Virus record (IMG/VR): IMGVR_UViG_3300046811_000110 | Span: 1-45,688 of that record | Length of the DNA: 45,688 nucleotides | Source: a virus | Direction: 5' to 3' (one strand) | Shown here: piece by piece, positions 10,083 to 44,599 of the stretch | Layout of the letters: each line of letters begins with the position of its first letter | Position numbering within the stretch: the stretch's first letter is position 1 | Translations under genes and position numbers: made by a program | Notes under the pieces: generated by a model | What the model saw: only the letters and a program-made list of their open reading frames with translations | Databases searched by the model: none | What the model was told of the DNA's origin: nothing

Positions 10083-13000
10083 CTATTTCAGCGCGGCGTC
10101 GGCGACCGCATGAATGCAGAGGATGTCGCCCAGGCTCGCGACCGTTCCGCTGGTTGCCAACAGAACGCCGGTGCTCTCGGAAAGCGCCGAGGCGGGGTCC
10201 TTCGAGACCGTCGCATCCGCGCCTGCCGTCACGTTGCGCCAGTTCGCGTTCGCCGCCGAGGGGTTGTAGGTGGTGACCGTGGGCGCCACGATCCCGATCA
10301 TCGGCGTGGGCCATTGCCAGAACAGCGAGGGGTCGCCGTTGGCAATCGGGTTCTTGGTGCAGAGTGCCCCGGCGACGCCCGCACTCTGCGCCGGAGCGAC
10401 GCCGGGCGGGAACGTCTTGAAATATCGTCGCTGCGCCCGCTGGAGGAGCTTGTTCGGCTCCTCGGCCAGATATTGCGTCGCGACCGTCGACTGCTCCATC
10501 TTCATCTTGGTCAGCGAGCAGTGGCCGCCGGTCGTCGTGCTGAGCTGCGTCTGGCTTGAATCTGAGAAGGTCTTGGTCGCGGTCCAGGCTCCGGTCGTGC
10601 CCTGGAATGTGCTGCCGACCTCGTAGTTGATCGAGATGTAGAGGTCGCTGTCGCCGGGCGAGGTGTACCATGTTCCGGTCGTCGGCCCCGGGATCTGTCC
10701 GGTGGTAAAGGTCGTGTCCGTGTTTGCGGTCGGCACCGAGATCATCGTCGCGTAGTAGAGATCGGACGCCCCGGAATTGATGCTCAGCCCGTAAGCCCCC
10801 GCGACGGAGCAGTTGATCGACCCGCTCACGACCACAGGAAAGGCCGTCGAGGTCCCCCATTCCAGTTGTGCGATGTCCGCCCCGGTGAGAGCCTGGTAGA
10901 CCGATAGCACATCGGTTGCGTTGACCGTCGCGCTCCCGGTCCCCACAGTCAGCTTGAGCGAGAACGGCGCACCGGACTGCACCGTGGCGACGCGCTGGAT
11001 CGAGAGGTTCGAGGCGGCGGTCGGCCCTTGGCTATTCCACCCGTCCGCGCTCTCGGTGACGACGACACCTGTCGCGTCGATCGTCGCGGAGGCGCCCTCG
11101 TTCTTCTGATCGAGGTCGAATCCGCCGTTGAGCAGCAGGTTTTGCCCGACGATGTTGGTGCATCTCTTGTTCTGGTTCTGGTTGTCGATACACACCGGCA
11201 CACCGCCCGCCGAGGGTAGATTTGGCTCGGTTACCAGATTGCCCAATAGCCGCGTCGTGGCCCCAGCTCCAGATCCATCCACGCGGAGAAGCCCGTTCGC
11301 GCTAGCGGGGACGCTTTCGATTGCGTTGTTATTTACTCTCTCTATGCCGCTGGCGAACTTGATCGGGAGTTGCACCGTCCGGTTTATGTAGAACAGATTG
11401 ATCGTCGGCTGGACCGAGCATCCCCCGCCAGTTGTTGAGGCGACGGGTCCCGGCGTCACTAGATAAGAGCCGGTGGAGGCTGCCGACGCCGAGGTGGAGA
11501 CAAGCGTCAACGCACCGGATAGAGTGCCGCCACCGCCCACTGTCCCGACGACAATCCCAGCTATCCCTTCACCGCCGACAATCGTGAACTGTGTCCCGGC
11601 CCCCGGCGTGCAACCGGAGCCCGGGGTCGCCACGGTTGGGGGATTAACCAGTGCGCCACTTGTGTTCGTTGTGATGTCCAGGCTCTGATAAAGGCCGAAA
11701 TCCTTAAAGTTCGGATTCCCGCCCGCCCGCTTCAACATAAAATCAAGCTGGTCGTATTCAAACGACAGTACGCCGTTGGCAAAATCGGGGACGGCAACGG
11801 CAAAGGCCGCCTCATCGAAGTGATCGTGGCGGACGAACCCGTAGATCGCAGGGTTGGCAACTGTCCCTGAGATAAGAACGTCACCAACGAGGTTGGGGAA
11901 GCTCTCGATGTGGCAGGTGATCTCCGGGTTGTTCTCCGGCTGCGCCCCCTCCTCGAACATCGTGATCGCATACTGCGATTTCGTGGAGATGTAGCCACCG
12001 TCGTTGCAGGTCCAGTGGCTTGTGCCATCGGTCCACACAGCCGGGTCCGGCGAGGACACGCTGATCGCGTCGCCAAGCAGAACCGCCGAGACATCGGCCT
12101 GGTTGGTGACGATGGTGGTCGCGGTCGTCGAGACGACCTTCGTGTTCGTTGGAAGCGCGAGACCATTCCCCGAGGCAGAGTCCTTGAGGATATATCCCGC
12201 TTGGATGCTCGACGGCACCGCCGCGAAAGTCAGGGTCGATCCCGATCCCTGCGCTGTCGCTATGAGAGCGGTGCCTGGGCCTTTCTGCGTACTCGTTCCA
12301 TGAAGGTTAAATGCCTCGTCGCATGACCCGAACGTGCCGGACGGCCAGCTTATCGTAGTGAACGCCGAGGCGAGGACATTGTGGTGGTTATCGCAGTCGA
12401 TCCATATGTTCGACGAGCCTGCGGTCAGCGACTCGTTATTGATGACCCCACCGAAGACCTGCGTAGCCTCTGACGCGTAATTCGCGACGGCGACCTGGGA
12501 AAACCTGCCGTCGATCCGAGGCGAGAAGAAGTCCATTTGCGAGGCCGTTTGCGTCGGGTTTGGCCGCCCGATCTGGAGGCCGATCAGCGCATCGTCCCCC
12601 ACCGTCGTCAGCGCGGCCTCACGATTTGGCGTAAACAGCTCGAAATCAGTCCACTTGACATACTTGCTGCCGATGGCGTCGACGCAAGTCCCGGTCGGCC
12701 CCGGCGTTGTCCCCACCGCGCACATCAAATGGATCGCGATCTGCACCCGGGGGGTCTTTGGCTGTCCACCGGAAGACGGCGAAAAATTCGTCAGGTTGAT
12801 CGTGCCTGTGTGGTAGCAGTACCGCTCCGGCGGGCTGTAGAGCATCCCGAAGCCGTGCGCGCGCAACGCAGCAGCAGCGGCGTTTATCGGCACCGTATCG
12901 TCGGTCCCGGTTGATCCTACCGCACTCGTCGCATCGCACTTCGCCCCGAACGCCATGACGTTGTAGACCGGCGTTCCGTAGTTGACGCTGAGCCCGAGCT

Positions 13001-25209: not shown

Positions 25210-26556
25210 TCATCCGAAGTTCCCCGAGTTCGATGCGGTGCTCTCGATGCGTGCGAGGAATTGCTGATTCAAAATGACCCAGCCCTCGAAAAACTTGTAT
25301 CCGATGACGCGCAACTGGTTGTGCGGATCGGACTTGTCGGCCTCGAAGAGCCGATTCCAACTGACGTTCTCCAGCTTGAGGCAGGCAAACGACTTTTGGC
25401 CGAAGATGAAGGTCGGGTAGACCGTGATGCCGATTCCTGGGGCGGCGGGCGGGACCTGCAACAGTCCGATGCCGGTGATCGTGACCGAGGTCGCGGGCGG
25501 AAGCTGGATCGCCTGGCCCTGGTAGGGGCCGGTCAACGGGCCGGCGGTGCAAAGCCCGAGATTGGCCGGGCTGGTCGAGGCCGGCTGGCTGACGTAGACC
25601 GCGTAGGTGAAGCCGGGGGTCGAGGGAGTGGTCAGGGTGATGCCGCCGGTCGTCACCGAGACGCCGGTCGTCACCGCGTAGACCCGGCTCTCGTACTGGT
25701 TCTGCGTGTCCCAGCCGGTGACCTGGATCGCATAGGTGCCGGTGGTCAGCGAGCCCGAGCCGTTCGAGGCCGAAACGCCGGCAACGCCGACCCAACTCGG
25801 CATGATGTTCGATTCGCAGAAGGTGATCCCGCGCCAGTAGCCGATCTCGTTGATGTAGAGGCGGTTGTGGTCGGAATACTGCCAGGTCTGCACGACGAGC
25901 GGGTTGTTCGCCAGATCGTTGAGGCAGAGCGTGTTCGAGATGCCGACGAGGTGTTGCGCGCCCTTTATCGTCTTTTCCGACTGGCGCGCGCTGTAGTCGA
26001 TCGAGCGCTGGATCGTCTCGCCGGTCTGCCCGTTGTAGAGCGGCGCACCGAGGAGTTTGAGGTTGGCGATCGTCCGGTTGATCGTCGTGGGATCGAGGTT
26101 GTCGCCGGCCACGATCGAGGCGCGGGCCCCGCGCGAGTTGACGTAGTTGACCTGGGTGCCGGCGAGGAGGTTGTTGAAGCCGTTGCGTTCCTTCAACTCC
26201 GCCATCTGCATGCCGAGGCGTTCGGTGGCCTGGTGCAAGAGGTCGTGCTGCGTCGCGACAACGGCGACATCGGTGAAGATGACGCGGCCCGCCCATTGCA
26301 AGGCGGTGCCGGTGACCTGGGTGAAGCTGAGCGCCTGCGCGTCGGGCGCGACGCCTTCGCCGACCGGCCCCAGCGGCAGCGAGAGGCGGGACCAGCGGGT
26401 CGCGGTCCAGTTGGTGCCGTGCCCGGTCTCCATCTGCTTCTTGTCGGCGAACTGGTAGACGATGAGGTAGCGCTGCGCGACCTCAAGCGCCTCCTTGTCG
26501 ATGACGCGGGTAATTGCGCCAGCGTATGAGGCAGATGTGTTGGTAACGCTCGCCAT
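25210..26556 (-). CDS. Major capsid protein, N4 gp56-like family, with inserted Ig-like domain
   Basis: 448 residues. The N-terminal two thirds follow the N4-gp56 HK97-fold capsid family: TRVIDKEALEVAQRYLIVYQ, then SLPLGPVGEGVAPDAQALS, TDVAVVATQHDLLHQATERL, INRTIANLKLLGAPLYNGQT and INEIGYWRGITFCESNIMPS. Residues about 255-380 (YAIQVTGWDTQNQYESRVYA and the Thr/Pro-rich part after it) form an Ig/Fn3-like insertion that probably decorates the shell. The C-terminus returns to the capsid fold (YPTFIFGQKSFACLKLENVS, YKFFEGWVILNQQFLARIES). GGAGG about 10 nt before ATG 26556 predicts strong translation. The scaffold gene lies directly upstream. Confidence 0.88.
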   Translation of the reverse strand: MASVTNTSASYAGAITRVIDKEALEVAQRYLIVYQFADKKQMETGHGTNWTATRWSRLSLPLGPVGEGVAPDAQALSFTQVTGTALQWAGRVIFTDVAVVATQHDLLHQATERLGMQMAELKERNGFNNLLAGTQVNYVNSRGARASIVAGDNLDPTTINRTIANLKLLGAPLYNGQTGETIQRSIDYSARQSEKTIKGAQHLVGISNTLCLNDLANNPLVVQTWQYSDHNRLYINEIGYWRGITFCESNIMPSWVGVAGVSASNGSGSLTTGTYAIQVTGWDTQNQYESRVYAVTTGVSVTTGGITLTTPSTPGFTYAVYVSQPASTSPANLGLCTAGPLTGPYQGQAIQLPPATSVTITGIGLLQVPPAAPGIGITVYPTFIFGQKSFACLKLENVSWNRLFEADKSDPHNQLRVIGYKFFEGWVILNQQFLARIESTASNSGNFG

Positions 26557-26576: not shown

Positions 26577-26594
26577 GGCGGGCAACGGCCCGCC
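26577..26594 (-). terminator. GC-rich hairpin between scaffold and capsid genes
   Basis: A perfect 7-bp stem GGCGGGC/GCCCGCC with a 4-nt loop (CGTT on the minus strand), starting at the scaffold stop codon and 20 bp before the capsid start. There is no T-run after it, so it is more likely an mRNA stabiliser or attenuator than a full terminator. Confidence 0.5.
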
Positions 26595-27391
26595 TACCAA
26601 AGTGGTTTGCCGTCGATGAGTGCCCGGTCGGCCTCGTAACTGTCCGCAGGCTGGCGGCGTGCCGGAGCCGCCCCGCCGCGCGCTCCAACCGGGCGCGTCG
26701 TCTGCCCGGCGACCCGAGCCGCCGCTGCCCGGCGCTGGGCCGGAGCCGCGCGGGATGCGCGTTTTTCCATGTCGTCGCCGTACAGGAATTTGAAGACGGC
26801 CTCGCGGTTCCAGTTGCGGCCGGCGGCGCGCTCGGCGGCAAGCGCCTGCTCGACGCGCTCGACATAAGCCTGTCGCACCCTGGAGGTTGCCGTCGACGCT
26901 CTGAAGTCCGCTTTGTCAAGCGCGTCCTGCTGCTGAAACTGGAGGGTCTGGAAGGCCCCCGTGAATTCCTGCCGTAACTCCTGCGTCACATCGGCGACGA
27001 GCTCGTCGGGAGCCATCAGCCTGCGTCGCTCTGCCCGTTCCGCCGCCGCCCGTGCTGCTGCCTGCGGATCTACCGCTTGGCGCTGCTCTAGCTGGCGCAG
27101 CCTCGCATCGAGGGCCGTCCGTTCGGCCCGTTCCGCCGCGAGGGCCCGTTCCGCTTCCTGTGCCCGTCGCCGGAGGTTCCGCGGCGTTGCCGCCCCGCCT
27201 CCGCGCCGTGGCGCAGGCTCTACATCATCGCCTTCCGCTTCTTCTTCGCCGGCCCCACCATCATCGGAGCCTTCGGGTTCGCCACCGTCGTCGTCGGCCC
27301 CTTCTTCGACATCGAGGTCGAGGTCGAGGTCTTCGCCTTCGGGAATTTCTTGCGTGCCATCAGCGCCCTCAACCGGAATACGGTCGGACAT
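26594..27391 (-). CDS. Scaffolding protein
   Basis: 265 residues. A very acidic N-terminus (EGEDLDLDLDVEEGADDD and similar to residue 60) is followed by a long Ala/Arg/Glu coiled coil (RRAQEAERALAAERAERTAL, residues 75-125), a helical middle (LVADVTQELRQEFTGAFQTL) and a basic, Ala/Arg-rich C-terminus that could bind the capsid shell. Acidic N-terminus, coiled coil and basic tail, directly upstream of the capsid gene, is the classic scaffold layout. A strong GGAGGAAG site precedes ATG 27391. The 111 bp to the next gene upstream hold nothing I recognise. Confidence 0.8.
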   Translation of the reverse strand: MSDRIPVEGADGTQEIPEGEDLDLDLDVEEGADDDGGEPEGSDDGGAGEEEAEGDDVEPAPRRGGGAATPRNLRRRAQEAERALAAERAERTALDARLRQLEQRQAVDPQAAARAAAERAERRRLMAPDELVADVTQELRQEFTGAFQTLQFQQQDALDKADFRASTATSRVRQAYVERVEQALAAERAAGRNWNREAVFKFLYGDDMEKRASRAAPAQRRAAAARVAGQTTRPVGARGGAAPARRQPADSYEADRALIDGKPLW

Positions 27392-28172: not shown

Positions 28173-30407
28173 TTATGTCTTCCTCGGCTGCATGTTGGTC
28201 ACGCCAGCGGCCGGAAGACGGTCGGCGTGGATTGCGCCCGGCGGGGGCTTCAAGAGGCGCGGCCCGGCGGGCACCGCTCCCGGCTGCGGTCGCCCCGGCC
28301 CTCCCGGCGCCGGCCCGCCACCACCGCCGCCCTGCTGCATCTGCTGTTGCTGCATCGCCATTGCCTTGGTCTGCATCTGCTGGAGGTGCAGCCCGATATG
28401 GGCCTGCTTGGTACCGTGCGGGTCGCCGTTCATTTGCTTATCTTGCATGTGCGACTTCAGGTGCTCGACATCCTGGTCGAGCGGGTGGACCGGCATCGAG
28501 TGCCCGTCGCCCATCAATTCATTCTCGATCTCCGGCCCCATCGTCAATTGCGCGCGCTGGTCGATGATGACCTGCGACCCGAGGAACGGCCCGAAGATCG
28601 ACTGCGTGTTGTACTCGATGATCGGCCCGAGGTGGAGCTGATAGCCCTCCTTCGCCAATTCGGCCCGCAGCATCGGATCGCGCAGCACGTTGACCCAGGC
28701 GGTTCCCTGTTGCTGCATTGCAACATTCTGCCGGACCTGCTCGCCGCCGCGCCAGACAAACGTGTATTGCCGTCGGTTGCGCAGCGGCTCGACCGCTTCG
28801 AGTTGCGCGCGCAGCCCCATCGAGCCGAAGGCGCGCACCGCTATTGCTGTGTCGCGATACTGGTAATCGAGGTCGACGCACCACCCCATCGCCGGGGTGA
28901 AGATGCCTTCCTCGAGGACGCTGACCGCCTCGGCCGTGGTCAGCAGGTCAACCTGCTGCTCCATCGCAATCTCGGCCTGGTTGCGTTTCGCGCCGGGCCG
29001 GCCGGTCTGCTGCGGCAGCATCGCCGGGTTGACCCCGAGCGTCTGGAATATCGCCTGGATCGCCATTTGCACGCGGACTTGCGCACGCGGCGTCAGATCC
29101 GGGAAGGTCAGGATCTTGACCGAGTCCGGCGGCATGTCCCACACCGCCCCCATATTGTAGATGAGGGGGCCGTTGCCCTTCGAGGTGTCGCGGGTGACGA
29201 TCGGGGCGGCCGAGAGCGTCGCGGCGTCCGCGCCCTCGTTCACCGCGTCATTGGCCTCGTATTGCAGCGAGGCGACCGGCGCGATAAGGCTCGGGCCCTT
29301 GAAGAGCCCGCCGACCTTTTTTGCCGGGGCCGACAACAGGTTGCAGCGGTCGTTCCAGTTCGGGTTGCGCTTGGCGCCGAGCTTCATCTTCTCGGGGCCG
29401 AAAAAGATGCGGCAGAGCCGGAGCTTCCCGTCCTTCTGGAACTTGCCCTTGTCGTCGAGCGGCAGGTTGTGCCAGGTCTCCCAAACGGTGACCTCGGCCC
29501 CCTTGGCGCGGATGCCGGCGTGCTCGGCGAGTTGCTTGGCGGTGTCCTTGTCCTGAAACCCGCCGGCGACGGCGCGCATCTTTTCCTTGAGGTCCTTCGC
29601 CTCGTCCTCGCGAATCGCGCCTTCCTCGGCCATGCGGTCGATGTCGGCCTTGGTCCAGCGCCGCACGATCGTCACCGAGCCGCCGCGGGCGAAGGCTTGC
29701 TCGATCGTGTCGACGGTGACCGGCAGCACCTGCACATCCTTGTCGTGCAGCACCTCGAACCCCGGTGCTCCCTCGCTCACCTCGTCGACCGTGATGTCGT
29801 CGATTTCCTCGCCTTCCGCCTCGACCGGCACACCCTGCATGTCGATAATGGGCCCGTGTGTTTCACGTGAAACAATCTCGCGGTCGACGACATTCCAGTC
29901 GACATAGAGGTTGTACTGCCCCTCGATGTCGCCGTGACGGCAGAGCGGCTTGGCGACCTGCGTCTTGAGGCGGGCCTGCCGGATGTAATGGTCGAGGAGA
30001 GCGACGATTGAGGTCGGGCTAGAGTCGTCGGCGCTGATCGCCTCGACGTAGCGGCCCGATTGCGGGAAAAGCTGGTTGGTAAAGCGGGTGGCGCGCGCCT
30101 CGACCGCATCGTGGATAATCGGCCAGTAGATTTCCGCGACGCCGTTATAGTAGCGCTTGTCGTTGGCGACGCAGTTGTAGCAGTCCCAAAAGTCCTCGAT
30201 GTCGTCGGCGCGGTCCGACTGGTCCTCGAAGCCCTTTTTTATCGTGTCCCACAGCTCGTCGAGGTGCTTGCGGATCGGCGAGTTGGGATCGCGGCGGCCC
30301 AGGAGATCGCGGTCGCGAGCCAGCGCATCCGTTTTCTCCTCGGCCTCACCGTCAGGGCTGTCCCCCAACAACCCTTCGGCATCCGATACCTCTGCCGCGT
30401 CGGACAT
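28173..30407 (-). CDS. Portal protein (podovirus type)
   Basis: 744 residues, a usual length for large podoviral portals. It starts with an acidic tail, then LDELWDTIKKGFEDQSDRAD and YYNGVAEIYWPIIHDAVEAR with RFTNQLFP, typical of the portal stem and wing start. A beta-rich middle has VTVWETWHNLPL. PVASLQYEANDAVNEGADAA and MAIQAIFQTLGVNPAMLPQQ form the crown/clip region, and the C-terminus is a Met/Gln/Gly/Pro-rich tail. It forms the DNA entry ring where terminase docks. Overlaps the next gene upstream (30407) as ATGA. A perfect parS-like palindrome lies inside codons 178-183. Confidence 0.85.
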   Translation of the reverse strand: MSDAAEVSDAEGLLGDSPDGEAEEKTDALARDRDLLGRRDPNSPIRKHLDELWDTIKKGFEDQSDRADDIEDFWDCYNCVANDKRYYNGVAEIYWPIIHDAVEARATRFTNQLFPQSGRYVEAISADDSSPTSIVALLDHYIRQARLKTQVAKPLCRHGDIEGQYNLYVDWNVVDREIVSRETHGPIIDMQGVPVEAEGEEIDDITVDEVSEGAPGFEVLHDKDVQVLPVTVDTIEQAFARGGSVTIVRRWTKADIDRMAEEGAIREDEAKDLKEKMRAVAGGFQDKDTAKQLAEHAGIRAKGAEVTVWETWHNLPLDDKGKFQKDGKLRLCRIFFGPEKMKLGAKRNPNWNDRCNLLSAPAKKVGGLFKGPSLIAPVASLQYEANDAVNEGADAATLSAAPIVTRDTSKGNGPLIYNMGAVWDMPPDSVKILTFPDLTPRAQVRVQMAIQAIFQTLGVNPAMLPQQTGRPGAKRNQAEIAMEQQVDLLTTAEAVSVLEEGIFTPAMGWCVDLDYQYRDTAIAVRAFGSMGLRAQLEAVEPLRNRRQYTFVWRGGEQVRQNVAMQQQGTAWVNVLRDPMLRAELAKEGYQLHLGPIIEYNTQSIFGPFLGSQVIIDQRAQLTMGPEIENELMGDGHSMPVHPLDQDVEHLKSHMQDKQMNGDPHGTKQAHIGLHLQQMQTKAMAMQQQQMQQGGGGGGPAPGGPGRPQPGAVPAGPRLLKPPPGAIHADRLPAAGVTNMQPRKT
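29859..29874. promoter_or_regulatory. Perfect parS (ParB/Spo0J-binding) palindrome
   Basis: The 16-bp palindrome TGTTTCACGTGAAACA matches the consensus chromosomal parS site that ParB/Spo0J-type CTPases load on in most bacteria. It lies within the portal reading frame (codons for IVSRET). No ParA or ParB is encoded in the window, so any protein bound here would come from the host. One copy of an exact 16-mer is not expected by chance in 45 kb. Confidence 0.8.
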
Positions 30408-30853
30408 CAGGGCGCCGGCTTATGCTCCGGCGGGACGTCGACGGGCGGGGAGGCGTTGAAGTGGAGCTCGTTGGCCGCGCGGGTCAGCCCAGCCATCGAG
30501 GCTTGCATTCCGCCCAGTTGCGGGATCGAGCCGACGATGCCGGCGAGCACCGGCACCATGCGCCCGACGACTTCGAGGAGGAGCGGGCCAACCTTGTCGC
30601 GGCTCGGCGGGTCCGGCGGCCTCGGCACGAACTGGCGTGCGGCCAGGGCAGCCATTTCCTCGCGCTCGGGTTCGGTCAGGTTCGGGGTCGCGCGCAGCTC
30701 AGCGAGCCGGCCAATTTCCTTCGGCGTCAACGCCACGGGAGGGGGCGGCTCGAGGACAATGACCGGCGCGACCGGCGGGGCCTTGTCGTCCGGGGTGTGG
30801 TCTGGTTCCGGCGCAATCGCCGGAGGCGGGGCTTCGGTGGTGGTGTCGCTCAT
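30407..30853 (-). CDS. Small Pro-rich protein between terminase and portal
   Basis: 148 residues. The N-terminal third is Pro/Glu-rich and disordered (PPAIAPEPDHTPDDKAPP), then there is a helical LTPKEIGRLAELRATPNLTE and a hydrophobic helix (LLLEVVGRMVPVLAGIVGSI) that is probably amphipathic. No family is recognised. Both ends overlap neighbours as ATGA, so it is made together with terminase and portal. Confidence 0.6.
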   Translation of the reverse strand: MSDTTTEAPPPAIAPEPDHTPDDKAPPVAPVIVLEPPPPVALTPKEIGRLAELRATPNLTEPEREEMAALAARQFVPRPPDPPSRDKVGPLLLEVVGRMVPVLAGIVGSIPQLGGMQASMAGLTRAANELHFNASPPVDVPPEHKPAP

Positions 30854-32919
30854 CGGGTCCTCGCTGGCATGGCCGACAGGTATCGGCGTCCATCGCGGCT
30901 ATACCTGTAATTCGGCTCGTTGTCATCATTCGCCTCATCCTCGGAGACGCGGCCCCGGATCATCCCGCAAAAGGCTTCCAGCCCCTCCATCAGCACCCGG
31001 TACGGCCCTTCCTCGGCGTGGTCCTGCAATTTGCCGCGGATGATCGCCCGCCCGTAGCCGCCCGAGAGCGCCCGCAAGGTCCACCGCGCGCCGGTCCCGA
31101 CGCTGACCACCGGCAGCCCGCGCTCGGTCCGCTCAAGCATCTCGCGCAGGTAATTCGCCCCGTCGAGCTCGGCCCCGCCGATCCGCTGCTCGGCCGGCAG
31201 GGTCTTCACTGCCTGCATCAGCCCGACATTGGTGTAGCGCTCGCCGTGCCGCGCCCCCACGGTCCAGACAATCGGCATCCGCCGCAGCACAGCCGCCTCG
31301 GGCGCGGCGAGCTTCAGCATCGCCTCCCACGACTTCACCCCCTCGCGGTGCGCCTCGAAGATCGCCGTGTCGCCCAGCAGCGCCGCCTCCCCCGCGATGT
31401 CGGCGACGCGCTCGCCCGGCGACCCCTCGCATACCCAATCGGCGAAGATCAGGAGGCGCCCGTCGAAGGCTTGGGCGAGGACCGCCGTCGTCAGCGCTCC
31501 GGTGGCGTTGGCGGCGAGGTAAAGCGGGCGGCCGCGCGCCAGTTGCAACTCCGGGTCGACATGCGCCTCGACCGAGAACCCGTCGTAAATCGGCGCCGCC
31601 GGCCGCATCAGGGGCGCGTAGGCCAAGGCGTTCGGCGCATCGATCTTGCCGTGCGGGAAGCTCAAAAGCTGCGTCTCAAGTTCGGTGAGCGGCTGGGCGA
31701 AGATGACCTCGCGCGCCCCGAAATACGGCTGCAACCCCCGAATGAAATCGAGTTTCCCGCGCGGCGCGCGCATGCCCCTATAGGGTATCGTGATACCGCG
31801 CCTGGTCTGCTCGTGGCGGATCAGTTGCAGCAGCCACTCCTCGAGACCGTCCTGCTCGATCCCGACAAAGACCGGATCGAAGCGCTCGACAATATCGAAG
31901 GCCAGCGCGACGATCTCGTCCGGCAGCAGCATCGGGGCGCCGGCGGCCCACACAACGAGGCGGTTCGCGACCCAGGACCAGACCGCCCAGCCGGTCGTCG
32001 CGCTCGTCGCGCGTACCGTGCGGGCCGGGTCGATCATCGCGTAGACCGGCTCCCAGTTGCGCACCCGGGGCTCGACGCGGAACATCTCGCGCTTGAAGAT
32101 GCGGTCGGCGGTGCTGGTCGCCTCGCACATATACTCCTGCACCCAGGTATCCATGTCGCCGACGTAATCGAGCTTCATCGCGTCGATCTTTTCGAGCGGG
32201 AACTTGTCGGGCCAGGTCGCGCGGCGCTCGCCCTCGTCGTCCAGGTGCTCGATCGGGAACTTGACCGTCGTCCATCCGGTCTTTTGCAGCCGCTCGGGCA
32301 GGCTGCCGACGCCGCGCCGCGTCCCCAGTTCGCGCACCCACGCGCCGACCGGATCGGAGAGCGAGGGGAGAAAGGTCTTCAGGAACCAGTCCCAGGTCTT
32401 CTCGCGCTCGGGGTCGGTGCGCATCTCGTCGGGGTCCTCGAGGTCGTCGACGAGCGCGGCGTCGGGGCGGTGGTCGAGGTACTTCATCCCGGTCATCGAC
32501 TGCTCGCGGCCGATGGCCTGGATGCATACGCCGTTTGCGAGGACGATCTTGCCCTCCTGCCATGTCTCGCCCTTCAGCGGCCCGAACAGGCTCTCGACAA
32601 GCTCGTTGATCTCGAATTCGCGTTTGATCGAGGCGAGGCGATCGCAGGCCAGCTTGTAGGACGCGCCGAGGATGACGAGGAAATGGAACTCGCGGTAGGC
32701 GGCCTTGAGGACCGCCGTCTCTTCGAGGTAGGTCGATTTGGCAAAGCCGCGGAAGCCCTCGATGGCGAGGCGGGCGAGCGGGCGGTTGATGTGGGAGACG
32801 AGATCGCGGTGCGCGTCGGGCGATGCGTTGGGGTGGCGGTGGCGGAACAGGTGCTGATGGGCGAGCCAGCGGTCCTCGCGCAACTGGCGCAGAAGCGCGA
32901 CCTGGACCGATTCGCTCAT
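30850..32919 (-). CDS. terL: Terminase large subunit (packaging ATPase/nuclease)
   Basis: 689 residues. The ATPase domain has Walker A GFRGFAKST (55-63), a motif region around LVILGASYKLACDR, and Walker B ALVDDLED (155-162). The RNase H-like nuclease starts with VYAMIDPART (Asp near 297) and continues with FVGIEQDGLEEWL (acidic residues near 355-357). After about residue 470 there is a second strand pattern RPLYLAANATGALTTAVLAQ with FDGRLLIFADWVCEG that resembles another RNase H-like domain lacking the catalytic Asp. The enzyme cuts and pumps DNA through the portal. Coupled to the protease gene upstream (ATGA). Confidence 0.9.
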   Translation of the reverse strand: MSESVQVALLRQLREDRWLAHQHLFRHRHPNASPDAHRDLVSHINRPLARLAIEGFRGFAKSTYLEETAVLKAAYREFHFLVILGASYKLACDRLASIKREFEINELVESLFGPLKGETWQEGKIVLANGVCIQAIGREQSMTGMKYLDHRPDAALVDDLEDPDEMRTDPEREKTWDWFLKTFLPSLSDPVGAWVRELGTRRGVGSLPERLQKTGWTTVKFPIEHLDDEGERRATWPDKFPLEKIDAMKLDYVGDMDTWVQEYMCEATSTADRIFKREMFRVEPRVRNWEPVYAMIDPARTVRATSATTGWAVWSWVANRLVVWAAGAPMLLPDEIVALAFDIVERFDPVFVGIEQDGLEEWLLQLIRHEQTRRGITIPYRGMRAPRGKLDFIRGLQPYFGAREVIFAQPLTELETQLLSFPHGKIDAPNALAYAPLMRPAAPIYDGFSVEAHVDPELQLARGRPLYLAANATGALTTAVLAQAFDGRLLIFADWVCEGSPGERVADIAGEAALLGDTAIFEAHREGVKSWEAMLKLAAPEAAVLRRMPIVWTVGARHGERYTNVGLMQAVKTLPAEQRIGGAELDGANYLREMLERTERGLPVVSVGTGARWTLRALSGGYGRAIIRGKLQDHAEEGPYRVLMEGLEAFCGMIRGRVSEDEANDDNEPNYRYSRDGRRYLSAMPARTR

Positions 32920-39893: not shown

Positions 39894-40319
39894 CTACGTT
39901 CTCAGCCCCGACAGCAGGCTTTGGCGACGACGCGCGCCGCGCTGTAGCCGGTCGCGGATCTCTGCAAGCGACGGGTAGAAGGTTTCCGCCCTCGCCCAGC
40001 CGCGCAGAGCCCACACGACGACATCGGCTGGATAGCTGGCGCACTCTTCCGCCATGACCTGAAACACCAGCACCAGGTCGTCGTCGATCTCGCGCGATTT
40101 GGTCGAGGCCCGCAGCCGCGCCAACTCGCCCTTGATGACCTGATCGGCGGCCGGCTCCATGCAGCGTTCCACCAGCATCCTCGCCGTCTCGATCTCGGCC
40201 TGCGTCGCGAGGTGTAGGCTAAGCTCGTAGCCAATCGTCTCGCAGTCGTACCCGTATTCCGGGTCAATGAACTCCCTCACCACGGGTCGGCAGGCGGACG
40301 CGATCGAGGGCGGCAACAA
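39894..40319 (-). CDS. Replication-block protein, helical, unknown
   Basis: 141 residues if it starts at TTG 40319. The helical sequence includes FIDPEYGYDCETIGYELSLH, IETARMLVERCMEPAADQVI and PADVVVWALRGWARAETFYP, then SLAEIRDRLQRGARRR. The open frame extends upstream without a normal start codon, overlapping the DUF1376-type gene by 56 bp or more, and still looks protein-like (SIEEALGCGDPEKTDKAIVA). So either a frameshift links the two genes or the start is unusual. The C-terminal pattern W-A-x-x-E-T-F-Y-P-x-L-x-E-I is typical of phage replication-associated proteins. Confidence 0.5.
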   Translation of the reverse strand: MLPPSIASACRPVVREFIDPEYGYDCETIGYELSLHLATQAEIETARMLVERCMEPAADQVIKGELARLRASTKSREIDDDLVLVFQVMAEECASYPADVVVWALRGWARAETFYPSLAEIRDRLQRGARRRQSLLSGLRT

Positions 40320-41016
40320 TGCTACTATGGCCTTGTCGGTTTTCTCCGGGTCGCCGCACCCCAGGGCTTCCTCGATCGAGAGTACGACGGCACCACGTTC
40401 GCCAAGTCGCCGCCCAGTCGAGCTTGACGCCACGCGCGCCGGCAACCGCGATCCAGTAGTCCCGGAACTCCTCGGCGATGCGTCCGGGGTCGAGCCCATG
40501 CGCCGCAGCGTATCCAACGTCCTCGGCAGAAGGCTGCCAATCGACCGCAAGCCTTGACCCTCGTCCCGCCCCTCGTCCATTCGCTCGCTCCTTGTTTGCG
40601 CCTATAGAATCTCCGACAGGAGATTCTTCTTTAATGGTTGATGGTTGATGGTTAGAAACCTCTGGGTTTTCTAATCCATTGGAATTTCGTAAAGGACGAC
40701 CTCCTTTGCGACCGTTTTCGGTAGCATTTAGGATCCGTTTACGCGCGATTTGTGTCTCGATTGTGCAGCGTTTCTGTGTCAGGAAGGAGCCATCCCAGTC
40801 GAGTTTCCCGAGGTCGACGAGCCGCTCGATGGCCCTTCTGACTGGTCTTGCGTCGCCGGCGATGGCGCGGCGCAACAGGCCCTTGGTGATGCCTTCGCCG
40901 CCGCGGCTGTAGATGAGCGCGCAGGCTTGCCAGTAGACGCCGAGCTCGGCGGCGTCGAGGCCGACCGTTCCGGCCAGCCACTCGTCGGGCGAAAAGTCTA
41001 TGCGGCGGATTTTCAC
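40264..41016 (-). CDS. DUF1376-type (YdaU-like) replication protein
   Basis: 250 residues from GTG 41016. The N-terminal domain (VKIRRIDFSPDEWLAGTVGL, LGVYWQACALIYSRGGEGIT, GLLRRAIAGDARPVRRAIER, LVDLGKLDWDGSFLTQKRCT) is the winged-helix DUF1376/DnaD-like module. A linker with NHQPSTIKEES follows, then the C-terminal replication motif (FRDYWIAVAGARGVKLDWAA, TWRTWCRR). Such proteins act at phage origins to load the host helicase. The linker DNA (40606-40673) holds inverted and direct repeats that may be the origin. Confidence 0.78.
   Translation of the reverse strand: MKIRRIDFSPDEWLAGTVGLDAAELGVYWQACALIYSRGGEGITKGLLRRAIAGDARPVRRAIERLVDLGKLDWDGSFLTQKRCTIETQIARKRILNATENGRKGGRPLRNSNGLENPEVSNHQPSTIKEESPVGDSIGANKERANGRGAGRGSRLAVDWQPSAEDVGYAAAHGLDPGRIAEEFRDYWIAVAGARGVKLDWAATWRTWCRRTLDRGSPGVRRPGENRQGHSSIVAALDRVRLPTRGEGVH
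40606..40673. other. Candidate replication origin inside the replication gene
   Basis: An AT-rich stretch with a perfect 9-bp inverted repeat AGAATCTCC-GACA-GGAGATTCT (40606-40627), three direct heptamers ATGGTTG, ATGGTTG, ATGGTTA (40634-40654) and a second imperfect hairpin TAGAAACC-TCTG-GGTTTTCTA (40653-40673). Origins inside the initiator gene are known from lambdoid phages. Confidence 0.45.
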
Positions 41017-41706: not shown

Positions 41707-41905
41707 GCCGGAAACTTTTGGCGAGCAGAATGAGTTCGGCGTCAGACAGAAAGCGGTCCTGTCCCTTCAACATTTTATGGACGCGCCAGCAGTTGTTCTC
41801 GCGCGTCACGGTGAACCCCGCCGACAGGAAGGCGCGGAATGCCTCGTTTGTTGCCACCTCATCCTCTCTCGGTTGAGGGTGAGGGACCACAGCCGCTTTT
41901 GCCAT
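41687..41905 (-). CDS. Small protein upstream of rusA
   Basis: 72 residues from ATG 41905. After a short start it reads EVATNEAFRAFLSAGFTVTR and FLSDAELILLAKSFRHAARA, a small helical protein. It overlaps rusA by 20 bp and the repressor gene by 47 bp. Not recognised. Confidence 0.55.
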   Translation of the reverse strand: MAKAAVVPHPQPREDEVATNEAFRAFLSAGFTVTRENNCWRVHKMLKGQDRFLSDAELILLAKSFRHAARAG

Positions 41906-42101
41906 TCGTCCTCTCCTTGAAAAGCTCCTTGTCGAGATAGACCTTTTTCTCCTCGGCCAGCGCGGCGACCGCGAGGTAGTACCGCGGCGGGATCGCGCCG
42001 TAGTGCTTCCAGTTGTAGACCGCCGGCCGGGTCACCCCGAGCTGGCGCGCGAGGAAGGCCGCACCTCCCAACGCCTTGATCGTGTCTGCTATCGTCGTCA
42101 T
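41859..42101 (-). CDS. Cro/YdaS-like helix-turn-helix regulator
   Basis: 80 residues from ATG 42101. MTTIADTIKALGGAAFLARQ, LGVTRPAVYNWKHYGAIPPR and YYLAVAALAEEKKV form the single-domain HTH of YdaS/Cro-type regulators (recognition helix RPAVYNWK, then the I-P-x-R/Y motif). It likely binds the short region between the two divergent operons and decides early expression. The presence of a Cro-like gene suggests temperate ancestry, but no integrase or second repressor is seen. Confidence 0.78.
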   Translation of the reverse strand: MTTIADTIKALGGAAFLARQLGVTRPAVYNWKHYGAIPPRYYLAVAALAEEKKVYLDKELFKERTNGKSGCGPSPSTERG

Positions 42102-42193
42102 GGCCCGACCGTACCACACGAAAAATAATATCACAAGACTTGACATGAGGGATATGCGAGATTACACCTCGTTTGACATTTTAGGAGGACGTG
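42102..42193. promoter_or_regulatory. Divergent early promoter/operator region
   Basis: Plus strand: TTGACA at 42140-42145 (in GACTTGACAT) with a weak -10 near 42162-42167 (TTACAC), then TAGGAGG before ATG 42194. Minus strand: TTGTGA, 17 nt, TACGGT upstream of ATG 42101. The two -35 areas touch, and CAAG-A-CTTG, a short inverted repeat, overlaps the plus -35, a natural operator for the Cro-like protein. Confidence 0.55.
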
Positions 42194-42484
42194 ATGACTG
42201 ATCCGAACTCGCCGACACTCGAAGCTCTCGACGCGGTGACCGACTACCTCGACCACGTGCAACGGCTGCGGGGCGGCAAGAAGTTCGCCTTCCTGATGCT
42301 GTGCAGCGACGGCACGGGGACAGTCACCATCGACGGCCGCAAGTTCGGTACGATCTTCCGGCCGATCGCCGAGGCATACGACGAGGCGCAGGCGTGGCTC
42401 GCCGGCACCGACGAGGCGACGAAGGCGCTGGACAGCGAGATAGGCCAGCCCGTCGATCACCTCTTCGTGGACGCCGCGCCATGA
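42194..42484 (+). CDS. Small early protein, unknown
   Basis: 96 residues from ATG 42194 (strong TAGGAGG). MTDPNSPTLEALDAVTDYLD, then FAFLMLCSDGTGTVTIDGRK and a helical C-terminus. First gene of the recombination operon; overlaps the exonuclease start as ATGA. Not recognised. Confidence 0.62.
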   Translation: MTDPNSPTLEALDAVTDYLDHVQRLRGGKKFAFLMLCSDGTGTVTIDGRKFGTIFRPIAEAYDEAQAWLAGTDEATKALDSEIGQPVDHLFVDAAP

Positions 42485-43335
42485 AAGCCCTCGGCCTCTC
42501 GCCCGAGCAGATCGAGCAGCGCCGCAAGTTCATCGGCGGCAGCGATGCCGGCGAGGTGATGACCGGCGACTGGCGCAAGCTGTGGGCTATCAAAACCGGC
42601 CGCGCGCAGCCCGAGGACCTGTCGAACATCCTCGCGGTCCAAATGGGCTCGTTCACCGAGGACCTCAACGCCTTCTGGTACACCAAGCAGACCGGGCGAG
42701 GGATCTTGAATCGCGGCGGTTTCGGGAAAAGTCTTGTCTACGATTGGATGGCGGCGAACCTCGACGGCTGGACTACCACCAGCAAAGGCGTCGGCGCTTA
42801 CTGGGACGCCAAGCACGTCGGCCGGCTCGACGAGGCCACGGTGCTTCGCTACACGCCGCAGATGACGCATTGCTGCACGATCCTCGGCCTCGACTGGTGG
42901 GTGCTCTCGGTCTTCGTCGGCAATTCCAAGTGGGAGATCGTCGAGCAGGAGGTCGACCCGGTCTACCAGGCGACCCTCATCGCCCGCGAGCGCGAGTTCT
43001 GGGGCTACGTCGAGCGCGACGAGGAACCGCCCGAGGTCTCGGCGCCGGTCCTTGCGCCCAAGCCGCAGCCGAAGCGGCGCAACATCGACGTGCCGATCAA
43101 CATCGACGATCCGGTGTTCGGCGCGCTGATGCAGCGCGAGAACTGGCTGCCCGAGATGGTCGAGGCGATGGCGGCTTTCGCCCGCACCGACGCGGCGGCG
43201 AAGGTCCACGCCATCGCTCGCAAGGACATGGATCGGCTGATGCCCGAGGACGTCGGGCTCGTCACCCGCGGCAACATCATCGCCAAGCGCGACGGCCGTG
43301 GGTTTGTCGCCTCGCTGAAGAAGGAGACCGAGTAA
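42481..43335 (+). CDS. YqaJ-family recombination exonuclease
   Basis: 284 residues. KFIGGSDAGEVMTGDWRKLW near the N-terminus (IGGSDA at 18-23) is the YqaJ/lambda-exonuclease entry motif, with LAVQMGSFTEDLNAFWYTKQ carrying the next conserved Glu, then AYWDAKHVGRLDEATV and WVLSVFVGNSKWEIVEQEV (the D/E-x-K-like core strands). These enzymes chew one strand of duplex ends so that an annealase can act. It is in one operon with a Bet annealase, giving a complete two-component recombination system. Confidence 0.82.
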   Translation: MKALGLSPEQIEQRRKFIGGSDAGEVMTGDWRKLWAIKTGRAQPEDLSNILAVQMGSFTEDLNAFWYTKQTGRGILNRGGFGKSLVYDWMAANLDGWTTTSKGVGAYWDAKHVGRLDEATVLRYTPQMTHCCTILGLDWWVLSVFVGNSKWEIVEQEVDPVYQATLIAREREFWGYVERDEEPPEVSAPVLAPKPQPKRRNIDVPINIDDPVFGALMQRENWLPEMVEAMAAFARTDAAAKVHAIARKDMDRLMPEDVGLVTRGNIIAKRDGRGFVASLKKETE

Positions 43336-43541: not shown

Positions 43542-43709
43542 TGGCTTGGCTTTGCGTTTTCGACCCTGTAAATGGGTCTGGCAGTTCAATGTCGGGAGCA
43601 ATTTCAGCGTTGGCATGCCGTCTGGCTCCCGCGCTCGCAGATCGAAATCAATGACGACGACACCGTGACGATGCCCGAGTGGCTCGCGCTTGATAAGGAA
43701 TTAATCTGA
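43541..43709 (+). pseudogene. Small gene with apparent -1 frameshift
   Basis: Two frames read like one protein. From TTG 43546, FRPCKWVWQFNVGSNF; then, after a -1 step at about 43605, QRWHAVWLPRSQIEINDDDT and [12 protein letters not shown] to TGA at 43707-43709. The second part alone can start at ATG 43572 (45 residues), and a GTG at 43541 with GGAGG upstream opens a third frame. WLPRSQIE...PEWLA is a common small phage protein, so either the gene is broken, the sequence has an error, or the frameshift is used. Confidence 0.5.
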
Positions 43710-44599
43710 TGCCCGTAGATCCGACAACCGGCGAGATCATCACGCGCCCGGCGCCAATCGTGTTCACGCCCGATCAGGTCGCCCTCATCAAGCGGACGAT
43801 CTGTATTGGGGGGACCGACGACGAATTGACTTTGTTCATGCACCAGTGCAAGCGCACCGGCCTCGACCCGTTCGCCCGGCAGATTTACGCGATCAAGCGC
43901 CAAGGGCGTATGACGATCCAGACCTCGATCGACGGGTTCCGGCTGATCGCCGAGCGCACCGGGCACTACGCCGGTCAACTCGGTCCGTTCTGGTGCGGCC
44001 AGGATGGCGAGTGGCGGGATGTCTGGGTGGACGACGCGCCCCCGGTCGCGGCGAAGGTCGCGGCGCTGCGCGACGACTTCAAGGAGCCCTGCTGGGGCGT
44101 CGCCCGGTATAAATCCTACGCACAAGCGCAAAGCCCGATCTGGCGCTCGATGGGCGATCTGATGGTGGCGAAGTGTGCCGAGGCGCTGGCACTGCGTCGC
44201 GCCTTCCCGCAGGAGCTTTCCGGCCTCTACACCGCCGACGAGATGGCGCAGGCCGATGTCCACGGCGAGGATGCCCCGCAGAGCCCCGCAGAGCCCCGTA
44301 CAGCGCAGGGAAGCCCACCGGCGGCTACGAGGGCCACCTGGGGCCATTCGCGCCCCCAGGCCGCTCCTGCGCGCTCCCAAGCGGAGGAAGAGGCCGCAGC
44401 CCGGTACAAGGAACTCGTCGGCGCCATCGCGGACGCCTCGCTCGGCGAGTTGACCGAGATCGACGTGAGCCTGGAGACTGACGAGATGCTGTGTCAGGTC
44501 GCCGAGGAGCCGCGCCGGATCATGGTCCAGCGGCTGCGGGACCGCATCGCGGAGCGGCACCGCAAGATCGCGCCGCTCGACGACGACATTCCATTTTGA
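43709..44599 (+). CDS. bet: Bet/RecT-family single-strand annealing protein with SSB-like C-terminal tip
   Basis: 296 residues. The annealase core (about 15-185) has [69 protein letters not shown] and [20 protein letters not shown] with [20 protein letters not shown], the Bet signature. It pairs single strands made by the YqaJ exonuclease. After an Ala/Pro-rich linker (190-235) and a helical part, the protein ends in LDDDIPF, which equals the conserved acidic tip of bacterial SSB used to recruit RecO, RecG, PriA and others. Start ATG 43709 overlaps the previous stop. Confidence 0.88.

Follow-up and report, generated by a model that had tools for sequence, protein, structure and literature searches.

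The window analysed here, i.e. the whole 45,688-nucleotide stretch of IMG/VR record IMGVR_UViG_3300046811_000110, carries one copy of the 16-bp palindrome TGTTTCACGTGAAACA at positions 29859-29874 (14-bp core 29860-29873, no strand assigned). This is the exact chromosomal parS consensus (Livny et al. 2007, as cited in PMC10197239), and it lies inside the portal gene of a phage that encodes neither ParA nor ParB. The assignment is based on the exact match, on conservation throughout a clade of related soil phages and on the information content of the aligned columns; two features of a chromosomal-type parS, the match to the 16-bp consensus and the conservation at the DNA level, are present. The preliminary description had already located the 16-mer within the portal gene, which is confirmed (minus-strand open reading frame 28173-30407), and its estimate that a given 16-mer is expected once in about 4 billion positions is correct. 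The best other match to TGTTTCACGTGAAACA in the 45,688 bases has more than three mismatches, and shuffled sequences are expected to yield only 0.03 matches within three. The interpretation given in that description is supported in part by the comparative data, namely in that these phages, devoid of ParAB, carry a DNA element that is under selection and has the sequence of the chromosomal parS consensus.

At the codon level, the site occupies codons 179-183 of the portal gene, read in frame as GTT TCA CGT GAA ACA (VSRET), and the preceding T is the third base of codon 178. The GC content of the window is 65% and the GC3 of the portal gene is 86%; all five codons of the site nevertheless end in A or T, which is opposite to the usage of the gene. 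Together with codon 178 they form six consecutive A/T-ending codons, the longest such run among 7,668 late-gene codons, and the four key codons are reproduced in 30 of 200,000 random synonymous draws.

In the portal family, 83 homologues of sufficient length for a tree were obtained from two scans of IMG/VR and one of GTDB, and 56 of these rows form one clade with an SH-aLRT support of 100, which is the same when the site columns are removed. The core GTTTCACGTGAAAC is found at the same codons, with at most two mismatches, in all 56 clade members (exact in 47), at protein identities to the window down to about 40%; outside the clade it is found at these codons in 0 of 27 homologues. The site can erode, as one or two core mismatches are present in nine of the 56 members. 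Among 42 non-redundant site-bearing members, which share 63% nucleotide identity on average, A or T is the last base of codons 179-182 in 93-98% of cases, compared with a few percent to about 20% for other conserved codons, and the synonymous identity reaches 0.86-0.95 at codons 179-182 against a mean of 0.58. This set was itself selected by the presence of the site, and therefore the clade-based count (56/56 versus 0/27) is the one that matters. The column profile shows near-full information across the 14-bp core and a steep drop at the third positions of codons 178 and 183, whereas the outer two bases of the palindrome are variable, sometimes C...G or G...C. Since conservation ends at the edges of the 14 bp, the alignment indicates that the DNA itself is under selection, at positions that are silent for the protein. 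Both the recurrence of the palindrome at the same codons in relatives and the synonymous comparison, which had been proposed as a check on the site, come out in its favor.

The nearest outgroups retain the amino acids in GC-rich codons: L216 reads VVSREE (GTC GTC TCG CGC GAG GAA) and L159 reads VVSRQR (GTC GTG AGC CGG CAG CGG), neither with a palindrome. Relatives with the same amino acids and no palindrome, previously named as evidence against the proposal, therefore occur only among these outgroups and not inside the clade. Taking into account that L216 and L159 hold VSRE/VSRQ in GC-rich codons, the site could have arisen in an ancestral V-S-R-E stretch through about four synonymous changes. 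The portal gene is simply where V-S-R-E codons could have allowed the gain, and a portal-specific function is unnecessary.

The portal gene (28173-30407, minus strand, 744 aa, 83 homologues) gave no match in PHROGs, Pfam and PDB sequence searches. Its AlphaFold model, built on a deeper alignment (54 homologues, mean pLDDT 80) and used instead of an earlier one that was too weak (pLDDT 60), matches in Foldseek the PDB portals of N4, SU10, PaP3, T7 and P22, with a best E value of 6.6e-17. Since the translated gene has the large terminase on one side and the major head protein on the other, and the predicted structure matches podovirus portals, the model identifies it as a portal. The model places VSRET where a long strand ends, within a beta-hairpin region. 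The surrounding genes on the minus strand comprise the terminase large subunit two genes upstream (30850-32919; phrog_38, E 5.8e-48), a small 148-aa ORF between terminase and portal (30407-30853; no family match), an acidic 265-aa protein (26594-27391; no family match), probably the scaffold from its position between the portal and the major head protein, and the major head protein itself (25210-26556; phrog_1357, E 2.2e-26). The same strand carries a replication initiation/primosomal protein (40264-41016; phrog_9327, 3992 and 1408) and a small Cro/YdaS-like regulator (41859-42146; phrog_8008 and phrog_35, with YdaS and P22_Cro Pfam matches in the same ORF set). A RecE-like exonuclease (42301-43335; phrog_434, E 1.5e-33) and a RecT-like annealing protein (43709-44599; phrog_2780, E 8.7e-73) lie on the plus strand, and RusA is also encoded. 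TRF detects a 12-bp tandem array, (TGCCTGGGCTGC)n, without strand assignment, at both contig ends (1-144 and 45425-45688). Because both ends fall in one array, within which the contig was broken, the window probably represents an entire genome, permuted or circular. The records of two relatives, G002 and G061, start at different points and have ends that are identical over 127 bp, with genomes of 45-47 kb. The genomes of the window and of these two relatives can be regarded as essentially complete, and gene absences are consequently meaningful.

The earlier statement that no ParA or ParB is encoded is borne out: ParB_N (PF02195) is missing from the window and its 37 first relatives, and ParA-type AAA_31 (PF13614) from the window and 19 relatives. 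The arrangement of a phage-encoded ParABS, with parA and parB adjoining the site, is accordingly not found. As regards lifestyle, L201, which has a mismatch in the core of its site, is the one record among 22 of the clade to encode a tyrosine integrase; the window encodes none, and no serine recombinase is present in the clade records. No Peptidase_S24 repressor was detected in the window or the clade, and no HTH_3 match exceeds the cut-off in the clade, the sole regulator found being the small Cro/YdaS-like protein. The complete genomes thus lack an integrase, as an integrase-free plasmid prophage would, but they also show no prophage repressor. The suggestion of a plasmid-like prophage is therefore only partly sustained: the lack of an integrase in 21 of 22 records agrees with it, while the lack of a CI-type repressor and the virulent type of many orphan-parS phages do not. 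No lysogeny module that would make segregation clearly useful was recognised, and most clade genomes are without recognised lysogeny genes.

GANTC is depleted in the window, with 41 occurrences observed against 89 expected from a Markov model and 220 from shuffling. GANTC is the CcrM methylation site of Alphaproteobacteria, and its under-representation is as expected for phages of CcrM-bearing members of this class. Furthermore, a portal homologue without the in-portal site is found in a Rhodospirillales MAG, which contains three copies of the 14-bp core, one of them on the parB contig at a distance of 1.5 kb from that gene. From these two observations, the GANTC depletion and the Rhodospirillales MAG, the clade host is probably a non-sporulating alphaproteobacterium.

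The exact 16-mer is not confined to this clade. It is present in 286 of 50,697 phage records (about 412 sites, with about 0.5 expected by chance), some of the Listeria records among the 286 being short contigs that could be host DNA, whereas two control palindromes of the same composition are found in 0 and 0 of the records. The parS variant TGTTTCACGTGGAACA occurs in 147 phage records and its reversed control in none. Among 18 representative parS records that were fetched, 16 are without a PF02195 match of any strength, and of the remaining two, one has a sub-threshold match only. In IMG/VR, at least 120 contigs contain the 16-mer, in at least 108 distinct flank contexts, compared with one contig for each of two controls; ParB_N is missing from 48 of 50 tested contigs. 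The raw IMG/VR count was rejected as proof, as the control palindrome TGTTCTACGTAGAACA likewise gives at least 116 usable matches. Among the matches listed, one family accounts for 72 of the 116 usable TGTTCTACGTAGAACA matches; parS instead falls into 108 flank clusters. The TGTTCTACGTAGAACA palindrome (L258-L377) is strongly conserved in one large viral family.

Sites in the VSRET frame are often located in morphogenesis or replication genes, such as a T7-type head-tail connector (L099), terminases (L075, L108) and a scaffold (L115). In a primase/helicase family, parS in the VSRETW frame is kept in L092, L109 and L398-L406 and is missing in L407-L409. Arthrobacter phage Ranunculus carries parS in its portal gene, at a GC3 of 0.90. 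In Vibrio phage phi 3 (L383) the site lies in the left terminal repeat, beside genes A1/A2, and Pseudomonas phiPsa374-like phages hold a parS variant in the direct terminal repeat. The link with packaging proposed earlier from the position in the portal gene finds no support of its own, the parS of other phages being placed also in primase, tail, lysis and early genes and in terminal repeats. It is an evenly balanced proposition that orphan host centromeres are a widespread convergent device, acquired by many unrelated phages of ParB-bearing hosts, often silently in a V-S-R-E-T frame, through which host ParABS/SMC would position and segregate their genomes in delayed or carrier-type infections.

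A precedent is provided by phi29 (L397, EU771092), which carries four TGTTTCACGTGGAACA sites, at 10445, 15903, 17243 and 18760, where 0.15 are expected at up to three mismatches. Those in the connector (portal) gene 10 and in gene 15 read VSRGT and that in gene 17 reads VPRET; the connector site is in the same V-S-R frame as the window portal site and is also present in PZA, B103 and further relatives. A passage of PMC9437464 that cites Meijer et al. 2005 attributes to Spo0J the entrapment of the phi29 chromosome in spores. This was the only statement on phages that lack ParB and make use of that of the host found in the texts searched, among which the original phi29 paper was not included. 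Owing to the four sites and the reported Spo0J-dependent entrapment, as far as the citing passage conveys it, such use is known in kind. Phi29, a virulent podovirus, resembles the window in lacking ParB and in having parS sites, including one in the portal/connector gene. It differs in its unrelated portal family and in its four asymmetric variants instead of one perfect palindrome, and the window host is probably non-sporulating. New in the present case are the evolutionary proof of selection, the wide occurrence of orphan parS, and the perfect palindrome itself, which sits silently in a portal family unrelated to that of phi29, in phages that probably infect Alphaproteobacteria.

With the chromosomal ParB/Spo0J-parS system, the window shares the identical 16-bp palindrome, and the core is identical in the Rhodospirillales MAG sites, but here the site is a single copy embedded in portal codons of a phage genome without parAB. 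Phage-encoded ParABS systems are known from P1, N15 and extrachromosomal mycobacteriophages. These also place a centromere on phage DNA, but the window has no ParA or ParB gene and its site is of chromosomal type. Alphaproteobacterial phages with CtrA sites, for which lytic deferral has been proposed (PMC9437464), similarly carry binding sites for a host cell-cycle protein, a role that is putative for the window; the protein is a different one, and no CtrA site (TTAA-N7-TTAA) occurs in the window.

The explanation that accounts best for these data, and that is considered somewhat favored overall, is that of a working chromosomal-type parS, kept without ParA or ParB of its own, on which host ParB loads so that host ParABS positions or segregates the phage DNA. 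The clade-wide selection on DNA at silent positions, the identity with parS and the absence of ParAB are direct observations. Binding of host ParB to the site is, from these, highly probable, while a benefit through positioning, segregation or deferral has about equal chances of being right or wrong. Once the DNA is inside the cell, CTP clamps of host ParB would be loaded at the site and then spread over the phage genome. Host ParA or a polar anchor, together with SMC, might then treat the phage DNA like a chromosomal origin. The phage DNA would thereby be positioned and, if lysis is delayed, could be inherited by both daughters, as reported for phi29 DNA in spores. The fact that many orphan-parS phages are of virulent types, where segregation is less obviously needed, counts against this explanation.

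The same fact is favorable to a host takeover, in which replicated parS-bearing phage genomes would draw ParB (and SMC) off the host origin and stall host chromosome segregation and division. Orphan parS is common in virulent types, e.g., the Listeria P100 group, phi29-like phages and Vibrio phi 3, and recognised lysogeny genes are missing from most clade genomes; however, a single site per genome would soak up little ParB early in infection, and a selected decoy might be expected to be clustered, whereas no second exact copy is found in the clade, so that takeover is rather unlikely. Equally unlikely is a role in entry, protection or expression, whereby ParB clamps or ParB-loaded SMC would internalise, protect or condense the incoming DNA, or silence late genes until replication. 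The parS sites or variants in the terminal repeats of Vibrio phi 3 and phiPsa374-like phages, whose ends plausibly enter first, are in line with such a role, as is the position of the window site within the late operon, but in the window clade the genome is permuted and the site is internal to it, away from any end that would enter first, and the window site shows no regulatory signal.

Conserved palindromic operators are numerous in phages, as the control palindrome conserved in one large family illustrates, and the site could in principle serve another DNA-binding protein, a phage or host regulator, instead of ParB. The identity with the parS consensus over all 16 bp, the location in the middle of a gene and not at a promoter, and the recurrence of the same word in at least 108 unrelated flank contexts make this operator hypothesis quite improbable. 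Still less credible, and hardly to be entertained, is an origin in coding constraint, an antisense gene, an RNA hairpin or chance. Although VSRET is nearly invariant within the clade, the codon choice is opposite to gene usage, the outgroups encode VSR by other codons, the conservation stops precisely at the core boundaries, and other phages have the same word in unrelated genes. Codon use and the outgroups lead to the rejection of chance and of a constraint at the protein level alone.

If the preferred explanation of a working parS loaded by host ParB is true, phages would exploit the most conserved bacterial chromosome-segregation system while encoding none of it, by means of a 14-bp sequence concealed at silent positions of an essential structural gene. 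This would bear on the persistence of virulent-type phages in slowly dividing or deferred infections, and would widen to many hosts a phenomenon with one precedent known so far, that of phi29 in sporulating Bacillus.

Exact parS is also observed in ssDNA phages of 4-6 kb, such as gokushoviruses and Spiroplasma phage 4 (L396), sometimes in five or six copies (bajarodino viruses). Two portal relatives without an in-portal site, G043 and G047, carry a one-mismatch parS elsewhere (at 29734 and 38750, respectively), perhaps relocated; that of G043 is read as VPRET in a 395-aa ORF.
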